A model generated the notes under the pieces. The model was given only the letters and a program-made list of their open reading frames with translations, had not been told where the DNA came from and did not search any database. Below, piece after piece: positions 28,195 to 49,692 of a DNA stretch of 64,000 nt (position 1 is the first letter of the stretch; the number at the start of each line of letters is the position of its first letter). Position numbers and translations under genes: made by a program. Source of the stretch: Burkholderiaceae bacterium (lineage in GTDB: Bacteria > Pseudomonadota > Gammaproteobacteria > Burkholderiales > Burkholderiaceae_E); contig JAHBZV010000005.1 in assembly GCA_019635275.1 (NCBI GenBank), positions 47,285-111,284 on the forward strand, given 5' to 3'.

Positions 28195-29484
28195 ATCCGC
28201 ACCCTCCCCAGGCTCCGTTTCCAGCGAGACGTCCAGCGCAACGTCCGCCGCGGCCTGCGCCAGCTCGGCCCCGGCCTGATCACCGGCGCGGCCGACGACG
28301 ACCCGAGCGGCATCGCCACCTACTCGCAGGCCGGCGCCCAGTTCGGCTATTCGATGCTGTGGACCGTCGTGTTCACGTTGCCGCTGATGGCCGCGATCCA
28401 GGTCATCAGCGCGCGCATCGGCTACGTCACCGGTCGCGGGCTGTCGGCCAACATCCGCGAGCGCTTTCCGCGCCCGGTGCTGTTCGCGGTGGTCGGCCTG
28501 CTGCTGCTCGCCAACACGCTCAACATCGCCGCCGACCTCGCCGCCATGGCCGAGGCGCTGCGCCTGCTGCTCGGCGGCTCGGCGCACGTCTATGCGGTCA
28601 CCTTCGGGCTGCTGTGCCTCGTGCTGCAGGTGTTCCTGCCGTACCAGCGCTACGTGCGCGTGCTGAAGTGGCTCACGCTCGCGCTGCTCGCGTACGTCGC
28701 GGTCGCGTTCTCGATCCGCATCGACTGGTGGCAGGTCGCGCGCGAGACCGCGTGGCCGAGGCTCACGCATACGCACGAGGTATTGCTGATGATCGTCGCC
28801 GTGTTCGGGACGACGATCAGCCCCTACCTGTTCTTCTGGCAGGCCAGCCAGGAGGTCGAGGATGCGGACCTGCGCGGCGGACCTGCACACACGCCCGCGC
28901 AGGTGCGCCGGCACCTGCGGCGCATCAAGGTCGACACGATCGTCGGCATGACGTTCTCGAACCTGATCGCGTTCTTCATCATCCTCAGCACCGCCGCGAC
29001 GCTGCACGCGGCAGGCGTGCGCGACATCCAGACCTCGGCGCAAGCCGCCGAGGCGCTGCGCCCGCTGGCCGGCGAGTTCACGTTCCTGCTGTTCAGCCTG
29101 GGCATCATCGGCACCGGGATGCTCGCGGTGCCGGTGCTGGCGGGCTCGGCCGCCTACGCGGTGGCCGGGTCGGCCGGTTGGCGCGGCAGCCTCGGCCTGC
29201 GGCTCGAGCACGGCGAGGGTCGCGGGTTCTACGGCGTGATCGCGGTCGCGACCGTCGGCGGCGTCGCGCTGTGTTTCGCGCCGATCGATCCGGTCAAGGC
29301 GCTGTTCTGGGCCGCAGTGCTCAACGGCGTGGTCGCCGTGCCGATCATGGCCGTCATGATGATCCTCGCCAGCCGCCGCGACACGATGGGCGAGAACACG
29401 ATCGGGCCGCGGCTGCGCTGGCTCGGCTGGATCGCCACCGCCGCGATGGCCGCGACAGTGGGGGCGACCTTCGCGACGGGCTGA
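28195..29484 (+). CDS. NRAMP family divalent metal transporter with non-canonical start
   Basis: An integral membrane protein of about 429 residues with roughly eleven hydrophobic segments, of the NRAMP/MntH superfamily (the branch related to Mg2+ and other atypical NRAMPs). The first segment LGPGLITGAADDDPSGIATY carries the metal-site motif, DPSG here in place of DPGN. The frame is open from 28030, but no ATG, GTG or TTG occurs before ATG 28354, which lies after this essential segment. An ATC at 28195 sits six bases after GGAG (28185-28188) and is my provisional start. A sequencing error or another rare codon could also explain this. Confidence 0.8.
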   Translation: MRTLPRLRFQRDVQRNVRRGLRQLGPGLITGAADDDPSGIATYSQAGAQFGYSMLWTVVFTLPLMAAIQVISARIGYVTGRGLSANIRERFPRPVLFAVVGLLLLANTLNIAADLAAMAEALRLLLGGSAHVYAVTFGLLCLVLQVFLPYQRYVRVLKWLTLALLAYVAVAFSIRIDWWQVARETAWPRLTHTHEVLLMIVAVFGTTISPYLFFWQASQEVEDADLRGGPAHTPAQVRRHLRRIKVDTIVGMTFSNLIAFFIILSTAATLHAAGVRDIQTSAQAAEALRPLAGEFTFLLFSLGIIGTGMLAVPVLAGSAAYAVAGSAGWRGSLGLRLEHGEGRGFYGVIAVATVGGVALCFAPIDPVKALFWAAVLNGVVAVPIMAVMMILASRRDTMGENTIGPRLRWLGWIATAAMAATVGATFATG

Positions 29485-37006: not shown

Positions 37007-37211
37007 CGGCCTGAAGGTCGCCGCGAGCGGCGGCAGGTTCGTCCGGTCCGGGCCCGGCAGCCCGGGCGGGTCGGGCGGTGCCGCCCGCGCCCCGTTACGT
37101 CTGGCCCGCTGCTTTACATCTGCTTACCCGCGGCAGCGGGTCGCCGCGTCGGCGCGCGCTACGCTGGGGGCGTTGTTCGTTCATGGGAAATCCCTCGAAT
37201 CGGAGCGAACG

Positions 37212-38771
37212 ATGAAAGCACGCGGCCCGGCCGCCTGGCTGGCCTGCGCAGCCGCAGCGGCGACGATCACGCTGGCGCCGGCTGGGCCGTCGCAGGCGCA
37301 GCAGCAGTACGACACGTCGTATGCGCAGGCGGCGTACGCGCAGGAAGAGCTCGACCAGATGCTCGCCCCGATCGCGCTGTACCCCGATGCGATGCTTGCG
37401 CAGGTGCTGATGGCGGCCACCTACCCGCTCGACGTGGTCGAGGCCGACCGGTTCGTGCGGCAGAACCCGGGCCTGACGGGCGAGGCGCTGGCCGACGCCG
37501 TCGAGGGCATGCCCTGGGATCCGAGCGTGCGCGCCCTGACGCAGTTCCCGTCGGTGCTGGCGATGATGAGCGAACGGCTCGACTGGACCGAGCGGCTCGG
37601 CGACGCCTTCCTCGCGCAGCGCGACCAGGTCATGGACACCGTCCAGTCGCTGCGTGCGCGCGCCTGGGACGCCGGGAACCTCTCCTCGAACGACCAGCAG
37701 CAGGTGATCGTGCAGGACCAGGTCATCGCGATCGAGCCGGTGCGGCCGGGATACCTGTGGGTGCCGTACTACAACCCGGTCGTCGTGTTCGGCACCTGGT
37801 GGTGGCCCGACTACCAGCCGTTCTTCTGGGTGCCGCCGGTGGCGTACCGGCCGCCGCACTTCTCCCGGGTCTACTCGTCGGGCATCGCGTGGAGCCCGTA
37901 CGTGCCGCTGCGCCCGCGGCTCTGGCACGACCCGCGGCCGGTCTGGCGCGACCGTTACGTGGTCGTCGACAATCACCGCGTCAACAACGTCATCGTCACG
38001 CGACCCGGCGCATCGCGGCCGCTCGTCTGGCGGCACGACCCCGAGCGCGGACGCGGCGCCGAGTGGCGCGCGCCCGACCGCCGCGGGCCGCGGCCCCATG
38101 GCCCCGACGCGTGGAACAGCGCCGCACCCGACCCGCGCTGGAACCGCCCGCCGCCGCCGGATGGCCGCTGGCAGGGCGTGGCCCCCGGGGCGCCGCGCGA
38201 CTACCGCAATGGTCGGGCACCCGCCAACGGCGAGTTCGGCCAGCGCCGCGAATACGGCCAGCCGCGCGGCGACTACGGACAGCCGCGTGGCGACGCCGGG
38301 CGCCCCTGGACCGGCAACCCCGGTCCCCGCGGCGAACCGCCTGCACAACGGCCCGGCGAGTCGTACCCGCAGCGCGTGCAGAAGCCGATGCCGACCGCGC
38401 GCGGCGAGATGCCGCAAGTCGCCCCGCCGCCCCATCCCTGGACCAACGGGCAGCCGCCCAGGGTGGATCGGCCCGCCCCCCGCGCCGCGCCGGTCGCGCC
38501 GCCGCCGCATCCGTGGACAAACGGGCCGCAGCAGCGGGTGGAACGGCCCGCGCCGCCCTCGCCGCGCCTGCAGCCGGCGCCGGTGGCCCCGCCGCCGCAT
38601 CCGTGGACCAATCCGCGCCAACCGCGAATGGACGCGCCGCAGCGCGCACCCGTCGCCGCCCCGCCGCCGCGGCCGCAGATGGCCGCGCCCGCCCAGGCGC
38701 AGCCGCAGGCCCGCCCGTCGCCGCGGGCCGACGGGCGCGGGCCGCACCCCGGCGAGCGTCGCGAACGTTGA
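37212..38771 (+). CDS. DUF3300 domain secreted protein, copy 1
   Basis: A 519-residue exported protein. A signal peptide (WLACAAAAATITLAPAGPSQA) precedes the DUF3300 domain, recognisable by ELDQMLAPIALYPDAMLAQVLMAATYPLDVVEA and by WVPYYNPVVVFGTWWWPDY. The C-terminal half is Pro/Arg-rich and disordered, with three copies of a VAPPPHPWTN element. The function of DUF3300 proteins is unknown; they are thought to be cell-envelope proteins. The ATG at 37212 is the signal-peptide start; the frame runs further upstream without a better site. A paralogue follows 88 bases downstream. Confidence 0.88.
   Translation: MKARGPAAWLACAAAAATITLAPAGPSQAQQQYDTSYAQAAYAQEELDQMLAPIALYPDAMLAQVLMAATYPLDVVEADRFVRQNPGLTGEALADAVEGMPWDPSVRALTQFPSVLAMMSERLDWTERLGDAFLAQRDQVMDTVQSLRARAWDAGNLSSNDQQQVIVQDQVIAIEPVRPGYLWVPYYNPVVVFGTWWWPDYQPFFWVPPVAYRPPHFSRVYSSGIAWSPYVPLRPRLWHDPRPVWRDRYVVVDNHRVNNVIVTRPGASRPLVWRHDPERGRGAEWRAPDRRGPRPHGPDAWNSAAPDPRWNRPPPPDGRWQGVAPGAPRDYRNGRAPANGEFGQRREYGQPRGDYGQPRGDAGRPWTGNPGPRGEPPAQRPGESYPQRVQKPMPTARGEMPQVAPPPHPWTNGQPPRVDRPAPRAAPVAPPPHPWTNGPQQRVERPAPPSPRLQPAPVAPPPHPWTNPRQPRMDAPQRAPVAAPPPRPQMAAPAQAQPQARPSPRADGRGPHPGERRER
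38415..38625 (+). repeat. Three PPPHPWTN repeat units in DUF3300 tail
   Basis: Three imperfect copies of a segment encoding (V/P)APPPHPWTN(G) are spaced by about 70-90 bases in the low-complexity C-terminal part of the first DUF3300 gene. The protein elements are better conserved than the flanking Pro/Arg/Gln sequence, which suggests a repeated binding motif. Confidence 0.7.
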
Positions 38772-38859
38772 CCGCGGTCAACGGCGCGAGCGCGAAGGCA
38801 TGGACCTGCGACGCACGCCTGCGTTTCACTGTCACGACCGAAGGATCAGGACGACCCCG

Positions 38860-40152
38860 ATGAAGTTCGCACGACCGATCGCCTGGCTGGCCAGCGCCGC
38901 GACCGCGATGACCCTCGCGATGGCCCCGATCGCTCCCGCGCAGGCCCAGGCTTCCGCCGCATGGCGGACGCAGGCACCCTACACCCAGCAGGAGCTCGAC
39001 CAGATGCTGGCGCCAATCGCGCTGTATCCGGACGCGCTGCTCGCGCAGGTGCTGATGGCGGCCACGTACCCCCTCGAGGTCGTGCAGGCTGCGCGCTTCG
39101 TGCAGCGCAACCCCGGCCTGGGCGGCGACGCGCTCGAGCGCGCGGTCGCACCGATGGGCTGGGATCCGAGCGTCGCGGCGTTGACGCAGTTCCCGTCGGT
39201 GCTCGCGATGATGAACGAGGAGCTCGAGTGGACGCAGCGCCTCGGCGAGGCCGTACTGGCGCAGCGCGAGCAGGTCATGGACACCGTGCAGGCCCTGCGC
39301 GCGAAGGCCTACGCGGCCGGCTCGCTGCGCTCGACCGAGCAGCAGCAGGTGATCGTGCAGGAGCGGATCATCCTGATCGAGCCGTGGCGCCCGGGCCTGC
39401 TGTGGGTGCCGTACTACAACCCGCTGATCGTGTTCGGCACCTGGTGGTGGCCGGCCTATCCGCCGTTCCTGTGGGTGCCGCCGGTCATCTACCGTCCGCC
39501 CTACTTCCCCGAGGTCTACTCGGTCGGCATCGTCTGGGGACCGGTGACGGTGATCCTTGCCTCGTTGTGGAACGACCCGCGGCCCGTCTGGCGCACCCGG
39601 CCGATGGTGATCGACCGCGTGCCGGTGACCAACGTGATCGTCACCAACGCCACCGCGCCACGCCCGCAGGTCTGGCACCACGATCCGGCGCACCGGCGCA
39701 GCATCGGGTACCGCACCCCGGCCGTGCGTGACCGGTATCCCTCGGTGCCGGCGCCGAGGGTCGCGCCCGCCCCCGGACAGCGCGTCGCGCCGACCCCGCC
39801 GCAGCGCGAGCGGATCACGCCCGCCCCGCAGCGCGAGCGTGAGCGCGTGACCCCGACGACGCCGCGCCGCGAGCCGGTGGCACCGGTGCCGCCGCAGCGC
39901 GAACGCGTCGCCCCGACGGCGCCGCGCGAACCGACCCGGTCGATGCAGCGCGAACCCTCGACGACGCCCCCGGCGCGCCCCGTTCCTCAGAAGCCGTCGC
40001 AGATCCAGCCACCGATGCAACGGCAGGCGCCCGTCGCGCCGCCGACCCAGGGCATTCGCGCGCCGTCGGACGTCGGCCCGCAGCACCGGCAGCAGTCGCC
40101 GCAGCGCCAGCCGCAGCAGCCGCGCGAACCACAGCAGCGCGGCCCGCAGTAG
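38860..40152 (+). CDS. DUF3300 domain secreted protein, copy 2
   Basis: A 430-residue paralogue of the preceding gene. The signal peptide is WLASAATAMTLAMAPIAPAQAQA. The domain shares long identical stretches with copy 1, such as QELDQMLAPIALYPDA and VLMAATYPL, and WVPYYNPL.VFGTWWWP. Its C-terminal tail is also Pro/Gln/Arg-rich but built on different short units (APTPPQRER-like, VAPTPP). The ATG at 38860 has AGGATCAGG upstream. The pair looks like a tandem duplication in which the folded domain stayed similar and the tails diverged. Confidence 0.88.
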   Translation: MKFARPIAWLASAATAMTLAMAPIAPAQAQASAAWRTQAPYTQQELDQMLAPIALYPDALLAQVLMAATYPLEVVQAARFVQRNPGLGGDALERAVAPMGWDPSVAALTQFPSVLAMMNEELEWTQRLGEAVLAQREQVMDTVQALRAKAYAAGSLRSTEQQQVIVQERIILIEPWRPGLLWVPYYNPLIVFGTWWWPAYPPFLWVPPVIYRPPYFPEVYSVGIVWGPVTVILASLWNDPRPVWRTRPMVIDRVPVTNVIVTNATAPRPQVWHHDPAHRRSIGYRTPAVRDRYPSVPAPRVAPAPGQRVAPTPPQRERITPAPQRERERVTPTTPRREPVAPVPPQRERVAPTAPREPTRSMQREPSTTPPARPVPQKPSQIQPPMQRQAPVAPPTQGIRAPSDVGPQHRQQSPQRQPQQPREPQQRGPQ

Positions 40153-45012: not shown

Positions 45013-45339
45013 ATGGGATTCACCGCCAGCGACGTCGTGCCCTTCACGCAGGCCCGCGCCAACCTGTCCGAACTCGCGGAACAGGTCAAGGCCGGCGCCG
45101 AGAAGATCATCACGAAGAACGGCGAGAGCTACGTCGCGCTGATCGATTCCGACCGACTCGACTACTACCACCGCCTGGAGCGCGAGCGCATCCACCTGCT
45201 GCTGCTCGAGGACGCGCGACGCGGCCTGGATGACGTCGTGGCAGGCCGCACACAAGAGGCGGACGCAGTCATCGCGACCCTGCAGAAGCGCCGCGCCGCC
45301 GCGAGGAAATCGCCCGCCCGGGCCGCCAAGCGTGGCTGA
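45013..45339 (+). CDS. Antitoxin of the Phd/YefM family
   Basis: A 108-residue antitoxin. The N-terminal DNA-binding fold is recognisable from VVPFTQARANLSELAEQVKAGAEKIITKNGESYVALID, the standard Phd/YefM pattern. The C-terminal half (RIHLLLLEDARRGLDDVVAGRT...) is helical and basic and should bind the toxin. It probably represses its own promoter through the palindrome at 44979-44990. The stop overlaps the toxin GTG by eight bases. It opens the accessory island next to mnmE. Confidence 0.9.
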   Translation: MGFTASDVVPFTQARANLSELAEQVKAGAEKIITKNGESYVALIDSDRLDYYHRLERERIHLLLLEDARRGLDDVVAGRTQEADAVIATLQKRRAAARKSPARAAKRG

Positions 45340-45721
45340 TCCGGCTTACCGGGTCGAGCTGACAGCGAGCTTCCTGGAGCGGCTGGAGTCCATCGAAACC
45401 TTTCTGCGGGAAGCCGATGCGCCGTTGGCCTACGACGCCCTGCTGACGATGCTTCGGGATACGGTGATCCCCAACCTGCGGCGTTTTCCGCGCATGGGCC
45501 GCCGCTACCTGGACCAGCCGCCGCAGTCTGCCGAAGCGATCGCCCTGCTCGGCCAGCTACCCGCCGGCGCAGTCGATGGCCTGCGGGTACTCGGCAGCGG
45601 CGATGACTTGATCCTGTACACAGAGGATGCGAGCCGCGCCACCGTGTACCTGCTGTCGATCCGCCACCACCGGCAGCTGAGCTTCGATTTTGCGAGGCTA
45701 TGGTCACGAGCCGGGGAATAG
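45332..45721 (+). CDS. Toxin of the RelE/ParE superfamily
   Basis: A 129-residue toxin translated from GTG at 45332, inside the end of the antitoxin gene. YRVELTASFLERLESIETFL is the typical first helix, and VYLLSIRHHRQLSFDF matches the closing strand with the basic residues that RelE/ParE toxins use. It is longer than the usual 90-100 residues, with an insert around ALLGQLPAGAVDGL. Whether it cuts ribosome-bound mRNA (RelE) or poisons gyrase (ParE) cannot be told. Confidence 0.85.
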   Translation: MADPAYRVELTASFLERLESIETFLREADAPLAYDALLTMLRDTVIPNLRRFPRMGRRYLDQPPQSAEAIALLGQLPAGAVDGLRVLGSGDDLILYTEDASRATVYLLSIRHHRQLSFDFARLWSRAGE

Positions 45722-45861: not shown

Positions 45862-47115
45862 ATGTGGAGCAAATCTGGCCCCATGCGAAAGGCAGCCATC
45901 TGGATGGCGACCGGCGGCGAAGCCCCCACCAGAGCGGGACGCTACATCACCCAGCCCTCGGGCTACCGGGCGTTCATAGCGGCACCCCTGCCGCCACAGC
46001 CCGCACTGGCACTGGGCGGCGAGCTTCAGGGCCTGCTTTCCGCCGCCGACCGCGCGCTGGGTCGGCTCGACGGGTCAGTGCTCACCCTGCCGAACCCGGA
46101 CCTCTTCGTCTTCATGTATGTGCGCAAGGAGGCGGTGCTCTCCAGCCAGATCGAGGGCACGCAAAGCTCCCTGCAGGACCTGCTCGCCGCCGAGGCGCAG
46201 CTCTTCGAACAGACCTTGCCGCGCGACGTGGACGAGGTGATCAACTATGTGCGCGCAATCAACCACGGCCTGGCGCGACTCGCCGAGCTGCCGGTTTCGG
46301 TGAACCTGATCCGCGAGATCCACGCCGAGCTGATGCGCGGCGTGCGCGGCGGCAGGCTCCAGCCGGGTGAACTGCGCACGAGCCAGAACTGGATCGGCCC
46401 GGCTGGCTGCACGCTGAACACCGCGACCTTCGTGCCGCCGCCGCACCACGCGGTGCCTGCGGCGCTGGGGGACCTGGAGACCTTCCTGCACGCATCCGAC
46501 GATCTGCCGCCGCTGGTGAAGATCGCGCTCGCGCATGTGCAGTTCGAGACGATTCACCCGTTCCTCGACGGCAACGGGCGCGTCGGGCGCCTGCTGATCA
46601 CCTTCCTGCTCACCGAGCGCGGCGTGCTGCACAAGCCGGTGCTCTATCTGTCGCACTACTTCAAGCAGCATCGGCAGGCTTACTACGAGCACTTGCAGGC
46701 GGTACGCGACCAGGGGGCCTGGGAAGCGTGGCTCGCGTTCTTCCTGCGCGGCGTGATCGAGGTGGCCGGTGAGGCCGCGGAGACGGCAAGGCGGATCCTG
46801 CAACTGCGAGAGCAGCACCGTGCCGCGATCACGGCGCAACTCGGCCGCGCGGCCGGCAACGGCCACAAGGTCCTCGAATCGCTGTTCGACCGGCCGATCG
46901 TCGCCGTGAACGACGTGCAGAAGATGACAGGCACCACCTACACAGCGGCAAACAGCCTGGTGTCCCGGCTGGTGAAGCTGGGCGTGCTCAGCGAGATGAC
47001 CGGCTACGCGCGGAATCGGCGGTTTCGCTACGCGCCGTATATCGCTCTGTTCAATGAGGCGGGCCCCGAGGGAGGGGCCGCGGAGGCGCCCGGGCGAGCG
47101 CAAGAGGATGTGTAA
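45862..47115 (+). CDS. Fic family protein (AMPylase type, class II)
   Basis: A 417-residue Fic protein. The active-site loop HPFLDGNGRVGR (about residues 232-243) is complete, including the catalytic histidine and both arginines. The inhibitory helix motif SSQIEGT ((S/T)xxxE(G/N), about residues 94-100) lies N-terminal, which defines class II Fic proteins that keep themselves inactive. A C-terminal winged helix (VNDVQKMTGTTYTAANSLVSRLVKLGVL) should bind DNA. Fic enzymes transfer AMP from ATP to target proteins. Its stop overlaps the start of a 41-codon ORF by one base, and the helicase-peptidase gene follows, suggesting one transcript. Confidence 0.93.
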   Translation: MWSKSGPMRKAAIWMATGGEAPTRAGRYITQPSGYRAFIAAPLPPQPALALGGELQGLLSAADRALGRLDGSVLTLPNPDLFVFMYVRKEAVLSSQIEGTQSSLQDLLAAEAQLFEQTLPRDVDEVINYVRAINHGLARLAELPVSVNLIREIHAELMRGVRGGRLQPGELRTSQNWIGPAGCTLNTATFVPPPHHAVPAALGDLETFLHASDDLPPLVKIALAHVQFETIHPFLDGNGRVGRLLITFLLTERGVLHKPVLYLSHYFKQHRQAYYEHLQAVRDQGAWEAWLAFFLRGVIEVAGEAAETARRILQLREQHRAAITAQLGRAAGNGHKVLESLFDRPIVAVNDVQKMTGTTYTAANSLVSRLVKLGVLSEMTGYARNRRFRYAPYIALFNEAGPEGGAAEAPGRAQEDV

Positions 47116-47240
47116 TGGCAAGAACCACCCACAAGAAGCCCGGCGACAACGCTGGCGACGCCGCGGTGAGCTACGAAGCCCCTCTCTTGGAGATGGACGA
47201 CACGCTGCGCGGCATCCGCAAGCAGTACAACGAACGCTGA
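47115..47240 (+). CDS. Small hypothetical protein, 41 residues
   Basis: An ORF of 42 codons from ATG 47115 (overlapping the fic TAA as TAATG) to TGA 47238-47240. It encodes a basic N-terminus (MARTTHKKPGDN) and an acidic-then-basic C-terminus (EMDDTLRGIRKQYNER). No family is recognised. Perfect coupling to fic and the 13-base gap to the next gene suggest it is translated and may be an adaptor or regulator of one of its neighbours; it could also be a remnant. Confidence 0.5.
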   Translation: MARTTHKKPGDNAGDAAVSYEAPLLEMDDTLRGIRKQYNER

Positions 47241-47253
47241 GCGCACAACCACA

Positions 47254-49692
47254 GTGATCGTCTATCAAGCCACCAAGAGTCAGTTTCTTCAGCACGCGCT
47301 GCGCCAAGACATCGAAGACATCGTCTCGCGCCAGTTTCACAGCGTGACGGGCCACGGGGTCGCACCTGCCGAGATCCAGGCCTGGAAGCACTCGCTGCTG
47401 GAGATGGCCAAGGTGCTGCAGGACGAAGAGATCCCGCCCGACGCCGGCGTGGCCATCGAGTACCAGCTGCCGCAGAGCTCCAGGCGCATCGACTTCGTGA
47501 TCACCGGCGAGGACGCTGCGGCGCGCACGAAGGTGGTGATCGTCGAGCTCAAGCAATGGTCCGAGTCGCGCCGCAGCGAGAAGGATGCAATCGTTTGGGC
47601 ACGCCGTGGCGGCCGTGCAGGCGAGACCGAGGGCCCGCACCCTTCGTATCAAGCCTGGTCGTATGCCGCCTACCTCGAAGACTTCAATAGCGCCGTGCAG
47701 GAAGGCGCGATGGCACTTCAGCCTTGCGCCTACCTGCACAACCACCCGCGCGACGGCGAGATCGACCACCCGCATTACCGCGAGCACATCGAGCGTGCGC
47801 CGCTCTTTCTGGCACCGGAGCGCGCCAGGCTCCAGGCGTTCATCCGTGAGCACGTGCGCCACGGCGACCGCCGCGGTGCGCTGTACACAATCGAGCACGG
47901 ACGCATCCGACCGTCGAAGATGCTGGCTGAAGCAGTGGCGGGGCTGCTGCAAGGCAAACCGGAGTTCGTGCTCATCGACGACCAGAAGGTCGTACACGAG
48001 ACCATCCTGCAGGCCGACGCCAGGGCAACGAAGCGCAAGCAGGTCGTGATCGTTCAAGGTGGGCCCGGGACGGGCAAGTCGGTCGTCGCGATAAACCTGC
48101 TTGGAGCGCTCATTTCGCGCGAACGCAATGCGCGCTACGTGTCCAAGAACGCCGCGCCTCGCGCCGTCTACGAGGCCAGGCTCGCGGGCACATTCACGAA
48201 GACGCGCATCAGCAACCTGTTCAGCGGCTCCGGGGCCTTCGTGAACGACGAGCCCGACACCTACGACACGCTGCTCGTCGACGAGGCCCACCGGCTGAAC
48301 GAGAAGAGCGGCCTGTTCCGCAACCTCGGCGACAACCAGATTCGCGAGCTGATCCGATCTGCACGTTGCACCGTCTTCTTCATCGACGACGACCAGCGCG
48401 TGACGGTCCACGATATCGGCCACACCGAAGAGCTGCGCGCCCGCGCCCGTGAGTTCGACGCCGCGGTGACCGAGCTGGAACTCTCGTCACAATTCCGCTG
48501 CAACGGCGCCGACGGCTACCTGGCTTGGCTCGATGACACGCTGGACATTCGCCCTACCGCGAACACCACGCTCGACCCGGCCGAGTTCGACTTTCGCGTC
48601 TTCGACAGCCCGAGCGAGTTGCACGACCTCATCGCACTGAAGAACGGCGCCAGCAATCGCTCGCGGGTCGTGGCCGGCTACTGCTGGGAGTGGCCGAGCA
48701 AGCGCGACCCGCAGGCCTGGGACATCGAGCTGCCGGCCTTCGGCTACCGGCGCCGATGGAACCTGGACAAGGACGGCAGCCTCTGGATCGTGACGCCGGG
48801 CTCGGTCGAGCAGGTGGGCTGCATTCACACGTGCCAAGGGCTCGAGCTGGATTACGTGGGTGTCATCGTCGGCCCGGATCTCGTCTACCGGGAGGGACGA
48901 ATCGTCACCGACGCGACGAAGCGCGCGCGGTCGGACCAGTCGGTCAAGGGCCTGAAGGGCATGTCGAAAGACGACCCCGACCGCGCCCGGCAACTGGCCG
49001 ACACGATCGTCAAGAACACCTATCGCACACTGATGACGCGTGGCATGAAGGGCTGCTACGTCTACTGCACCGATGCGCCACTCGCTGCGTACCTCCGCGG
49101 CCGCCTGACGGCGACGACCGATAGCGGTGACGCTCGACCGCGGGGCACTGCTGCAGCACCGAACGCCGAGTCACGAGACTCGAACGTGATACCGCTGCGC
49201 CGAGTCTCGATCGCGGAGCGCGCCGCCGGCATGCCCGCAGTGCCGGTGATCGACCTGCGTCTCGCGGCTGGCCCGTTCTCCGACCCGCAGGCGCTCGAAA
49301 CAGGCGCCACCGATTGGGTGGCGCTGCCCGACTGGGTGCGCCCGCAGCCCGGCCTGTTCGTGGCGCAGGTATCGGGTGAGTCCATGAACCGCCGCATCCC
49401 CAACGGCGCGTGGTGCCTGTTCCGCGCCAACCCGACCGGAACGCGCGAGGGCAAGGTGGTGGTGGTGCAGCATCGCAGTATCGCCGACCCCGAGACGGGT
49501 GGTCGTTACACGATCAAGGTCTACTCGAGCGAGAAGGATCCAGCGGAGGATGGAGGCTGGCGGCACCGGCGGATCACGTTGCGGCCTGACTCGGATCGGC
49601 CGGGATTCGAGCCTATCGTCATCGAGGCGGGCGACGGGGACGAGGGGTTTGTCGTTGTGGCCGAGATGTTGACGGTGCTCTCGAAAGGCTAG
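47254..49692 (+). CDS. Nuclease-like / DUF2075 helicase / S24 LexA-like peptidase fusion protein
   Basis: An 812-residue protein starting with GTG. Residues about 60-105 resemble a PD-(D/E)XK nuclease core: D in RRIDFVITG (about 80), then VIVELKQW with E98 and K100. Residues about 260-650 are a DUF2075 superfamily 1-like helicase: Walker A GGPGTGKS (about 269-276), Walker B LLVDEAHRL (about 340-348), a QFRC motif, and HTCQGLELDYVGVIVG near the end. After a linker comes a LexA/S24-type peptidase domain with the serine motif VSGESM (Ser about 710) and the lysine in YTIKVY (about 755), so the catalytic dyad appears intact. Role unknown; defence or stress-triggered DNA/RNA processing is my inference. 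Confidence 0.85.
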   Translation: MIVYQATKSQFLQHALRQDIEDIVSRQFHSVTGHGVAPAEIQAWKHSLLEMAKVLQDEEIPPDAGVAIEYQLPQSSRRIDFVITGEDAAARTKVVIVELKQWSESRRSEKDAIVWARRGGRAGETEGPHPSYQAWSYAAYLEDFNSAVQEGAMALQPCAYLHNHPRDGEIDHPHYREHIERAPLFLAPERARLQAFIREHVRHGDRRGALYTIEHGRIRPSKMLAEAVAGLLQGKPEFVLIDDQKVVHETILQADARATKRKQVVIVQGGPGTGKSVVAINLLGALISRERNARYVSKNAAPRAVYEARLAGTFTKTRISNLFSGSGAFVNDEPDTYDTLLVDEAHRLNEKSGLFRNLGDNQIRELIRSARCTVFFIDDDQRVTVHDIGHTEELRARAREFDAAVTELELSSQFRCNGADGYLAWLDDTLDIRPTANTTLDPAEFDFRVFDSPSELHDLIALKNGASNRSRVVAGYCWEWPSKRDPQAWDIELPAFGYRRRWNLDKDGSLWIVTPGSVEQVGCIHTCQGLELDYVGVIVGPDLVYREGRIVTDATKRARSDQSVKGLKGMSKDDPDRARQLADTIVKNTYRTLMTRGMKGCYVYCTDAPLAAYLRGRLTATTDSGDARPRGTAAAPNAESRDSNVIPLRRVSIAERAAGMPAVPVIDLRLAAGPFSDPQALETGATDWVALPDWVRPQPGLFVAQVSGESMNRRIPNGAWCLFRANPTGTREGKVVVVQHRSIADPETGGRYTIKVYSSEKDPAEDGGWRHRRITLRPDSDRPGFEPIVIEAGDGDEGFVVVAEMLTVLSKG

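Follow-up and report, generated by a model that had tools for sequence, protein, structure and literature searches.

A LexA-type module at the end of a Schlafen-group nuclease-helicase: a possible off-switch for bacterial defence motors

How bacteria keep their DNA-cutting defences from destroying their own damaged chromosome is an old question, and one to which a single gene of a Burkholderiaceae bacterium may bear an answer. The stretch of DNA analysed (hereafter the window) comprises 64,000 nucleotides of contig JAHBZV010000005.1 from a draft genome of 3.69 Mb in 162 contigs, with a completeness of 86.8%. At positions 47254-49692 of its forward strand lies one open reading frame (ORF) of 812 codons, with a GTG start and no internal stops, in which a PD-(D/E)XK-like region and a Schlafen group 3 helicase are followed by a module of the LexA/S24 type. 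Why should such a motor end in such a module? The answer that we tentatively favour, at a little under an even chance, is that the module is a RecA-triggered, self-cleaving off-switch that would act in cis on a defence-type nuclease-helicase. The parts of the protein, in window coordinates, are as follows.

47254..49692, forward strand: nuclease-helicase-S24 protein, 812 amino acids (ORF and Pfam)
47254..47988, forward strand: N-terminal PD-(D/E)XK-like region, residues 1-245 (R78, D80, E98 and K100 invariant in 20 aligned sequences, 2 of them from S24-less proteins)
48037..49074, forward strand: Schlafen group 3 helicase domain, residues 262-607, with Walker K275 and DEAH at 343-346 (Pfam and alignment)
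49111..49227, forward strand: faster-evolving linker, residues 620-658 (pN/pS 0.27-0.81, ten pairs)
49237..49680, forward strand: LexA/S24 module, residues 662-809 (Pfam, profiles and motif counts)
49267..49272, forward strand: predicted cleavage site Ala672/Gly673, in the context DLRLAA/GPFSD (motif conservation and LexA profile alignment)
49381..49383, forward strand: predicted catalytic Ser710 (motif conservation)
49516..49518, forward strand: predicted catalytic Lys755 (motif conservation)

The three-part architecture had been proposed in an earlier, sequence-only reading of this DNA and is borne out here. The motifs named there are in place, with RRIDFVI starting at residue 77, VELKQW at 97, GGPGTGKS at 269, VDEAH at 342, HTCQGLELDYVG at 525, SGESM at 707 (placing Ser710) and YTIKVY at 752 (placing Lys755). 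Two domains exceed their Pfam cut-offs: PF09848, the Schlafen group 3 helicase, over residues 262-607 (343 bits against a cut-off of 24, covering positions 1-354 of the 354 in the profile) and PF00717, Peptidase_S24, over residues 664-741 (25.0 bits against 23.3). Invariance was assessed in a full-length alignment of 33 rows, namely the window protein and 32 proteins hand-chosen from the 69 three-part loci described below, 37-80% identical to it. Residues D80, E98 and K100 of the nuclease, K275, D343 and E344 of the helicase, and A672, G673, S710 and K755 of the S24 module are all invariant in it. For the N-terminal nuclease core proposed by that reading, the motifs and their invariant residues hold up; the Pfam match to NERD, at 16.8 bits, lies under the cut-off of 22.1, and a PDB search with the N-terminal region gave no relevant match. 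The Ser710/Lys755 dyad is present as that reading had it; the Ala-Ala/Gly site preceding the dyad (A672/G673) is a feature that it did not contain.

Could the module cleave itself as LexA does? Motifs were counted in 96 of 104 module matches, those of 60 bits or more; the eight scoring lower comprise two decayed modules (L127, L128), fragments in L053 and L152, and four matches that are secondary or due to chance, and the 96 include a few taken from one and the same locus (L010, L015). The dyad is complete in every readable module, with Lys in 96/96 and Ser in 95/95, this latter count being partly selected for since Ser sat in one of the two scan patterns. The cleavage site and Lys were in neither pattern. 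AAG occupies the site in 91/92 readable modules, the remaining one having AVAG, and the residue preceding the final Ala-Ala is F, I, A, V, L or M in 92/92. Modules recovered by profile or similarity (L101, L102, L125, L145, L148 and L149) likewise retain site, Ser and Lys. When the module profile was compared with a profile of 23 LexA C-terminal domains (22 of 29 LexA-like matches plus the LexA of the window genome, rows without the site triplet or full coverage having been dropped), site, Ser and Lys were aligned across 119 columns with an E-value of 2.2e-4; two control profile comparisons gave 0.28 and 0.47. The module thus looks able to cleave itself, and the conserved site and dyad, together with the purifying selection described below, make more likely the autoproteolytic switching that we infer.

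RecA filaments drive the cleavage of LexA. Its severed N-terminal part ends Val-Ala-Ala and is removed by ClpXP, a protease that takes both cleaved LexA and ssrA-tagged proteins by ends of the hydrophobic-Ala-Ala type. The anatomy of the window protein would be that of a nuclease and motor followed by a flexible linker and then by a LexA-type self-protease. In the sequence of events that we propose, broken DNA would lead to RecA filaments that bind the module, which would then cut itself, LexA-like, between Ala672 and Gly673. The severed motor-nuclease would end Leu-Ala-Ala (in relatives Phe-, Ile-, Ala-, Val- or Met-Ala-Ala), and by this hydrophobic-Ala-Ala end ClpXP would destroy the nuclease-helicase part. 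The result would be restriction alleviation in cis, the damaged host chromosome being spared its own defence enzyme. In favour of this reading, DNA damage brings about alleviation of type I restriction, and in types IA and IB HsdR is destroyed by ClpXP (PMC3874165).

The presence of related modules at the ends of other defence motors is a larger finding than the single fusion. Partners were assigned by similarity to eight hand-chosen representatives: among the 96 modules, 74 are joined to PD-(D/E)XK-Schlafen helicases, three to GIY-YIG-like Schlafen proteins (for two of these, L101 and L102, the assignment covers the part after the N-terminus), three to HsdR, three to Res-like proteins, two to DruE-like proteins and one to a DISARM/type IIG-like methylase. 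The ten without assignment are ORFs of at most 391 residues, contig ends and broken frames among them. Domain scans found HsdR domains in L058, L078 and, in part, L055, which is named HsdR from a partial protein, DruE-like domains in L056 and L072, and Res-like domains in L097, L153 and L154. L155 has Eco57I/DrmMI-like domains, its methylase-borne module being distant (79 bits, on a long branch), and L156 combines a Schlafen helicase with a GIY-YIG match of 20.7 bits, under the Pfam cut-off of 22.6. As to gene order, in L078 HsdM, a specificity-domain protein and a 599-residue protein without assignment stand in a row with HsdR-S24, a methylase gene lies near Res-S24 in L097 and L153, and two helicase genes precede the methylase-S24 gene of L155. 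In L166 a stand-alone module ORF of 164 residues (1453-1947) directly follows a helicase piece matching restriction helicases, so the module may also act as a separate subunit.

Four helicases only 36-37% identical to that of the window (one of them, L069, a partial match) carry modules that are 54-57% identical to its own. Furthermore, the HsdR module of L078 (row L119 of the module tree) falls inside a starred clade of 35 rows, mainly Schlafen modules; this nesting is the one result used from a tree of few columns and many weak forks. Judged from these identities and this placement, the module is portable and has changed partners. The link to defence made by the sequence-only reading gains support from the company that the module keeps, namely type I and type III-like restriction, DruE-like and DISARM-like proteins. 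An off-switch fits best, since these partners are DNA motors and restriction enzymes that would be dangerous during chromosome repair. It is possible, although we hold it with more doubt than the proposal for the window protein itself, that a portable LexA-type module has repeatedly been joined to type I, type III-like, DISARM-like, Druantia-like and Schlafen-helicase motors, each of which would gain a RecA-sensing self-destruct switch, so that restriction alleviation in cis would be a general device.

Is the module maintained? In ten chosen pairs of relatives the ratio of nonsynonymous to synonymous differences (pN/pS) was 0.09-0.30 for the S24 module, 0.02-0.20 for nuclease plus helicase and 0.27-0.81 for the linker. 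By this measure the module is under purifying selection and the linker evolves faster. A chance fusion or a functionless relic, for which the relatives with a decayed module or none might speak, is accordingly very improbable: selection, invariant motifs and fusion to other motors all argue the other way.

Those relatives are themselves instructive. L127 and L128, which share genus code g237, have lost the Ala-Gly site and Lys, and their Ser-Met motif has been destroyed (in L127 a serine still occupies the aligned column, outside that motif); all 15 of 15 checked nuclease-helicase residues are kept, and the decayed modules preserve the start and end of the S24 domain. The pair offers a useful natural comparison for loss of the module, and we count it in favour of the off-switch. 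S24 domains of LexA and phage repressors dimerise, and retention of both domain ends in the decayed pair would fit a fold that served to join subunits, or to recruit the motor to RecA filaments or repair forks, with cleavage irrelevant. We consider such a docking role rather unlikely, however, since it gives no need to keep Ala-Gly, Ser and Lys together, and in this pair they were lost together.

Two-part proteins that stop after the helicase also exist. S24 is missing from 19 of 88 nuclease-helicases, which end 4-27 residues past the matched region; in four of the 19 (L133, L138, L139 and L144) a stop codon interrupts the reported match. Cleavage of a three-part protein would nearly restore a form that exists as a protein of its own, and this is in keeping with the off-switch. 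The resemblance would also suit an on-switch, in which the module would restrain the nuclease-helicase until RecA filaments or a phage set off cleavage, the released enzyme then attacking DNA or killing the infected cell, and the evidence of dyad and site is identical for such a switch. Against it, L127 and L128 join a decayed module to an apparently intact nuclease-helicase, which would be useless under a strict on-switch, and restriction motors unleashed after DNA damage would endanger the host at a time when type I enzymes are damped. Taken alone the on-switch seems to us rather unlikely, and we judge the off-switch somewhat more likely than it, the sequence-only reading having taken no side on the direction. 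On a tree of the nuclease-helicase part, the S24 label changes at least seven times, five of these changes being forced by strong branches; the count cannot tell gain from loss. The tree, quickly made and with long branches that come together, holds 60 of the 88 sequences, 40 out of 68 with S24 plus the remaining 20, and with L017, whose record has the module in another frame than the helicase, counted as S24, there are 41 with the module and 19 without.

How widespread is the architecture? Homologues of the window protein at an E-value of 1e-20 or better occur in 10 of 74 genomes of its family and in 26 of 399 of an order sample, the window genome included in both, and three-part forms occur among them as well as forms stopping after the helicase. 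The module profile found relatives in 5 of 398 genomes of a phylum sample (its own included), in 2 of 78 of one class and in 5 of 247 of another phylum (centre genome included; two of the five are short ORFs only). A scan of genome contigs with eight modules yielded 182 relatives, the best 80 of which were analysed as loci. The Schlafen helicase is matched by the same ORF in 69 of the 80, short or partial matches (L035, L060, L069, L079, L093 and the like) being counted, so that the architecture recurs. The apparent scarcity of large S24 fusions in a sorted and shortened list, from which weak ones would be missing, was set aside. The 69 three-part loci comprise 47 from Pseudomonadota, 11 from Thermodesulfobacteriota, four from Myxococcota and one each from four phyla, some of the single-phylum records (L018, L037) perhaps being mis-binned contigs. 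Several loci are one genome reached twice (G066=L026, G032=L028, G065=L033, G687=L065 and G615=L066). Positions 1-3020 of L018, a 3-kb contig from a metagenome-assembled genome (MAG) of Actinomycetes, are almost identical to the window gene and the end of the fic gene upstream; L037, from a Planctomycetota MAG, is 80-84% identical.

One plasmid record contains a module relative; none was found in the viral contig scan or among the phage records. A phage origin of the module was rejected on these results. They bear equally on the notion that the module is a decoy, sensing not DNA damage but a phage product aimed at LexA-type domains. Its resemblance to the phage repressor family phrog_4 in PHROGs (30.8 bits) and its changes of partner would be in keeping with this. 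The sequence gives no pointer to a phage ligand, and with relatives lacking from both viral sets we regard the decoy as improbable.

Four further features lie immediately upstream of the gene.

45013..45339, forward strand: Phd/YefM antitoxin (Pfam)
45230..45721, forward strand: ORF with a ParE-like toxin domain (Pfam)
45862..47115, forward strand: SoFic-like Fic protein, at the place of the relatives' usual MazG-like gene (PADLOC SoFic 404 bits, and Pfam)
47115..47240, forward strand: ORF of 41 residues, with an overlap at the fic stop (TAATG) and 13 bases between its end and the main gene (ORF)

The toxin-antitoxin, Fic and nuclease-helicase genes form a small stretch adjoining the 3' end of a gene on the opposite strand, downstream of the main gene, which we take to be mnmE; a racemase-like gene lies on the other side. 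Of two further species of the genus, G066 carries a three-part gene next to mnmE and G069, at the same place, a two-part gene lacking S24, so one site holds different versions of the gene. Integration at a tRNA was considered and rejected, ARAGORN counting zero tRNA genes in the window and no convincing direct repeat flanking the stretch. A fixed Fic partner was also rejected, similar Fic genes lying near few relatives. Elsewhere in the window, two adjoining ORFs at 37173-40152 encode similar proteins (with a stretch like LAPIALYPDA.LAQVLMAATYPL) and are apparently tandem copies.

The commonest neighbour in relatives is a gene for a MazG-like protein (in L021 of 116 residues, PF12643 52.8 bits). 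Of the 69 three-part loci, 49 have it directly upstream; among the 57 in which the gene start and sufficient upstream sequence are present, the number is 47, and 47/48 distances are at most 72 bases. One of the MazG seeds (L064) is a wrong ORF. Of the ten misses, one (L087) has a MazG-like gene downstream. GIY-YIG-like forms also have the gene next to them, as do the two-part forms of G069, of a Microcystis phage and of plasmids from Priestia and from an archaeon, but the two-part form of a Hymenobacter plasmid does not. In the window, and next to the G051 and G032 genes, none was found. Where it lies upstream, this MazG-like nucleoside triphosphate pyrophosphohydrolase may act together with the enzyme. 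MazG is listed in PMC13092281 among predicted, not yet validated defence domains.

In L041, L044, L045 and L047, none with a MazG gene just upstream, the last 20 or so bases of the three-part gene are shared with a gene of 391-393 residues; in L041 its product is a NOV_C protein (PDC-S36), and two genes beyond it, on the opposite strand, stands an HNH gene. Tetratricopeptide repeat (TPR) proteins of 650-749 residues lie upstream in L067, L077 and L040, an association that may be due to chance since TPR repeats match widely and link unrelated proteins. Two-part helicases have restriction genes as neighbours on two plasmids and partly metabolic genes on the archaeal plasmid, and this last observation makes them weak support for a role in defence. 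Some neighbours, namely the SoFic-like Fic, toxin-antitoxin, NOV_C and HNH genes, do support the defence link.

Several observations weigh against a RecA-triggered off-switch and are best considered together. The likeness to LexA is remote: the HHalign probability of the profile comparison is only 45%, its LexA rows were chosen partly for possessing the site triplet, and a PDB search with the module profile gave four matches, all LexA, all weak, the best at an E-value of 0.07 and none at 0.01. PF00717 scores among relatives range from none listed (L072) or 17 bits up to 39 bits, several (17-23 bits) lying under the cut-off. Assignment from eight representatives could have missed other partners. 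Control by an SOS box was rejected, CTGT-N8-ACAG with at most one mismatch being absent after window position 29317, and no LexA-type box lies near the gene. The window copy, without a MazG-like gene, may be atypical. The Ala-Ala end may, as in LexA, serve the needs of the protease site alone and be no degron. Lastly, alleviation of type IC EcoR124I proceeds without ClpXP (PMC3874165), no degron was found in the HsdR of EcoKI (PMC4231737), and plasmid-induced alleviation of EcoKI is independent of the SOS response (PMC11109961). The EcoKI and EcoR124I data mean that alleviation needs no such module.

Were the off-switch reading correct, a fused LexA-type module would be a simple answer to the question posed at the outset, tying the DNA-damage signal directly to phage defence; for EcoKI the signal in HsdR to which ClpXP responds was not found (PMC4231737). 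Regulated defence motors could then be recognised by a tag in their sequence, and self-cleavage would be seen to control an enzyme in a setting other than gene repression or mutagenic repair. The domains are individually known; their combination, and the reuse of the module on several defence motors, appear to be new. No report of S24-fused defence motors, or of a pair of MazG and Schlafen helicase, was found in full-text literature judged by titles and the starts of abstracts, most subscription papers and bioRxiv lying outside that scope, and S24 and LexA are absent from the main text of PMC12839542, on BREX-related systems.

How, finally, does the protein compare with known systems? Its best PADLOC match is to the candidate model PDC-S41 (59.1 bits, in three stretches, the best at 518-604), for which the PADLOC output describes no S24 module. 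Over the helicase it also matches Nhi (42.9 bits) and AbiO (42.3 bits), families that are not known to carry an S24 module. These matches span about a third of the models (180-331 of 470 and 176-329 of 468, respectively). All three are partial, further weaker matches being present, and since none is full-length the window protein is assigned to neither Nhi nor AbiO. A single gene encodes the nuclease-helicase Nhi, which is proposed to respond to phage SSB (PMC12904381). With LexA, UmuD and phage repressors the module has in common the Ser-Lys dyad, the Ala-Gly site and the order of motifs; it differs from them in being fused to a DNA motor-nuclease rather than to a repressor or polymerase subunit, and in sequence it is remote. 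The closest parallel in idea is type I alleviation, as in EcoKI, in which damage to the host chromosome leads to removal of a restriction motor. In that case ClpXP works in trans, its target being translocating HsdR, for which no degron is known, whereas the window protein would carry a candidate sensor and a candidate degron in cis.

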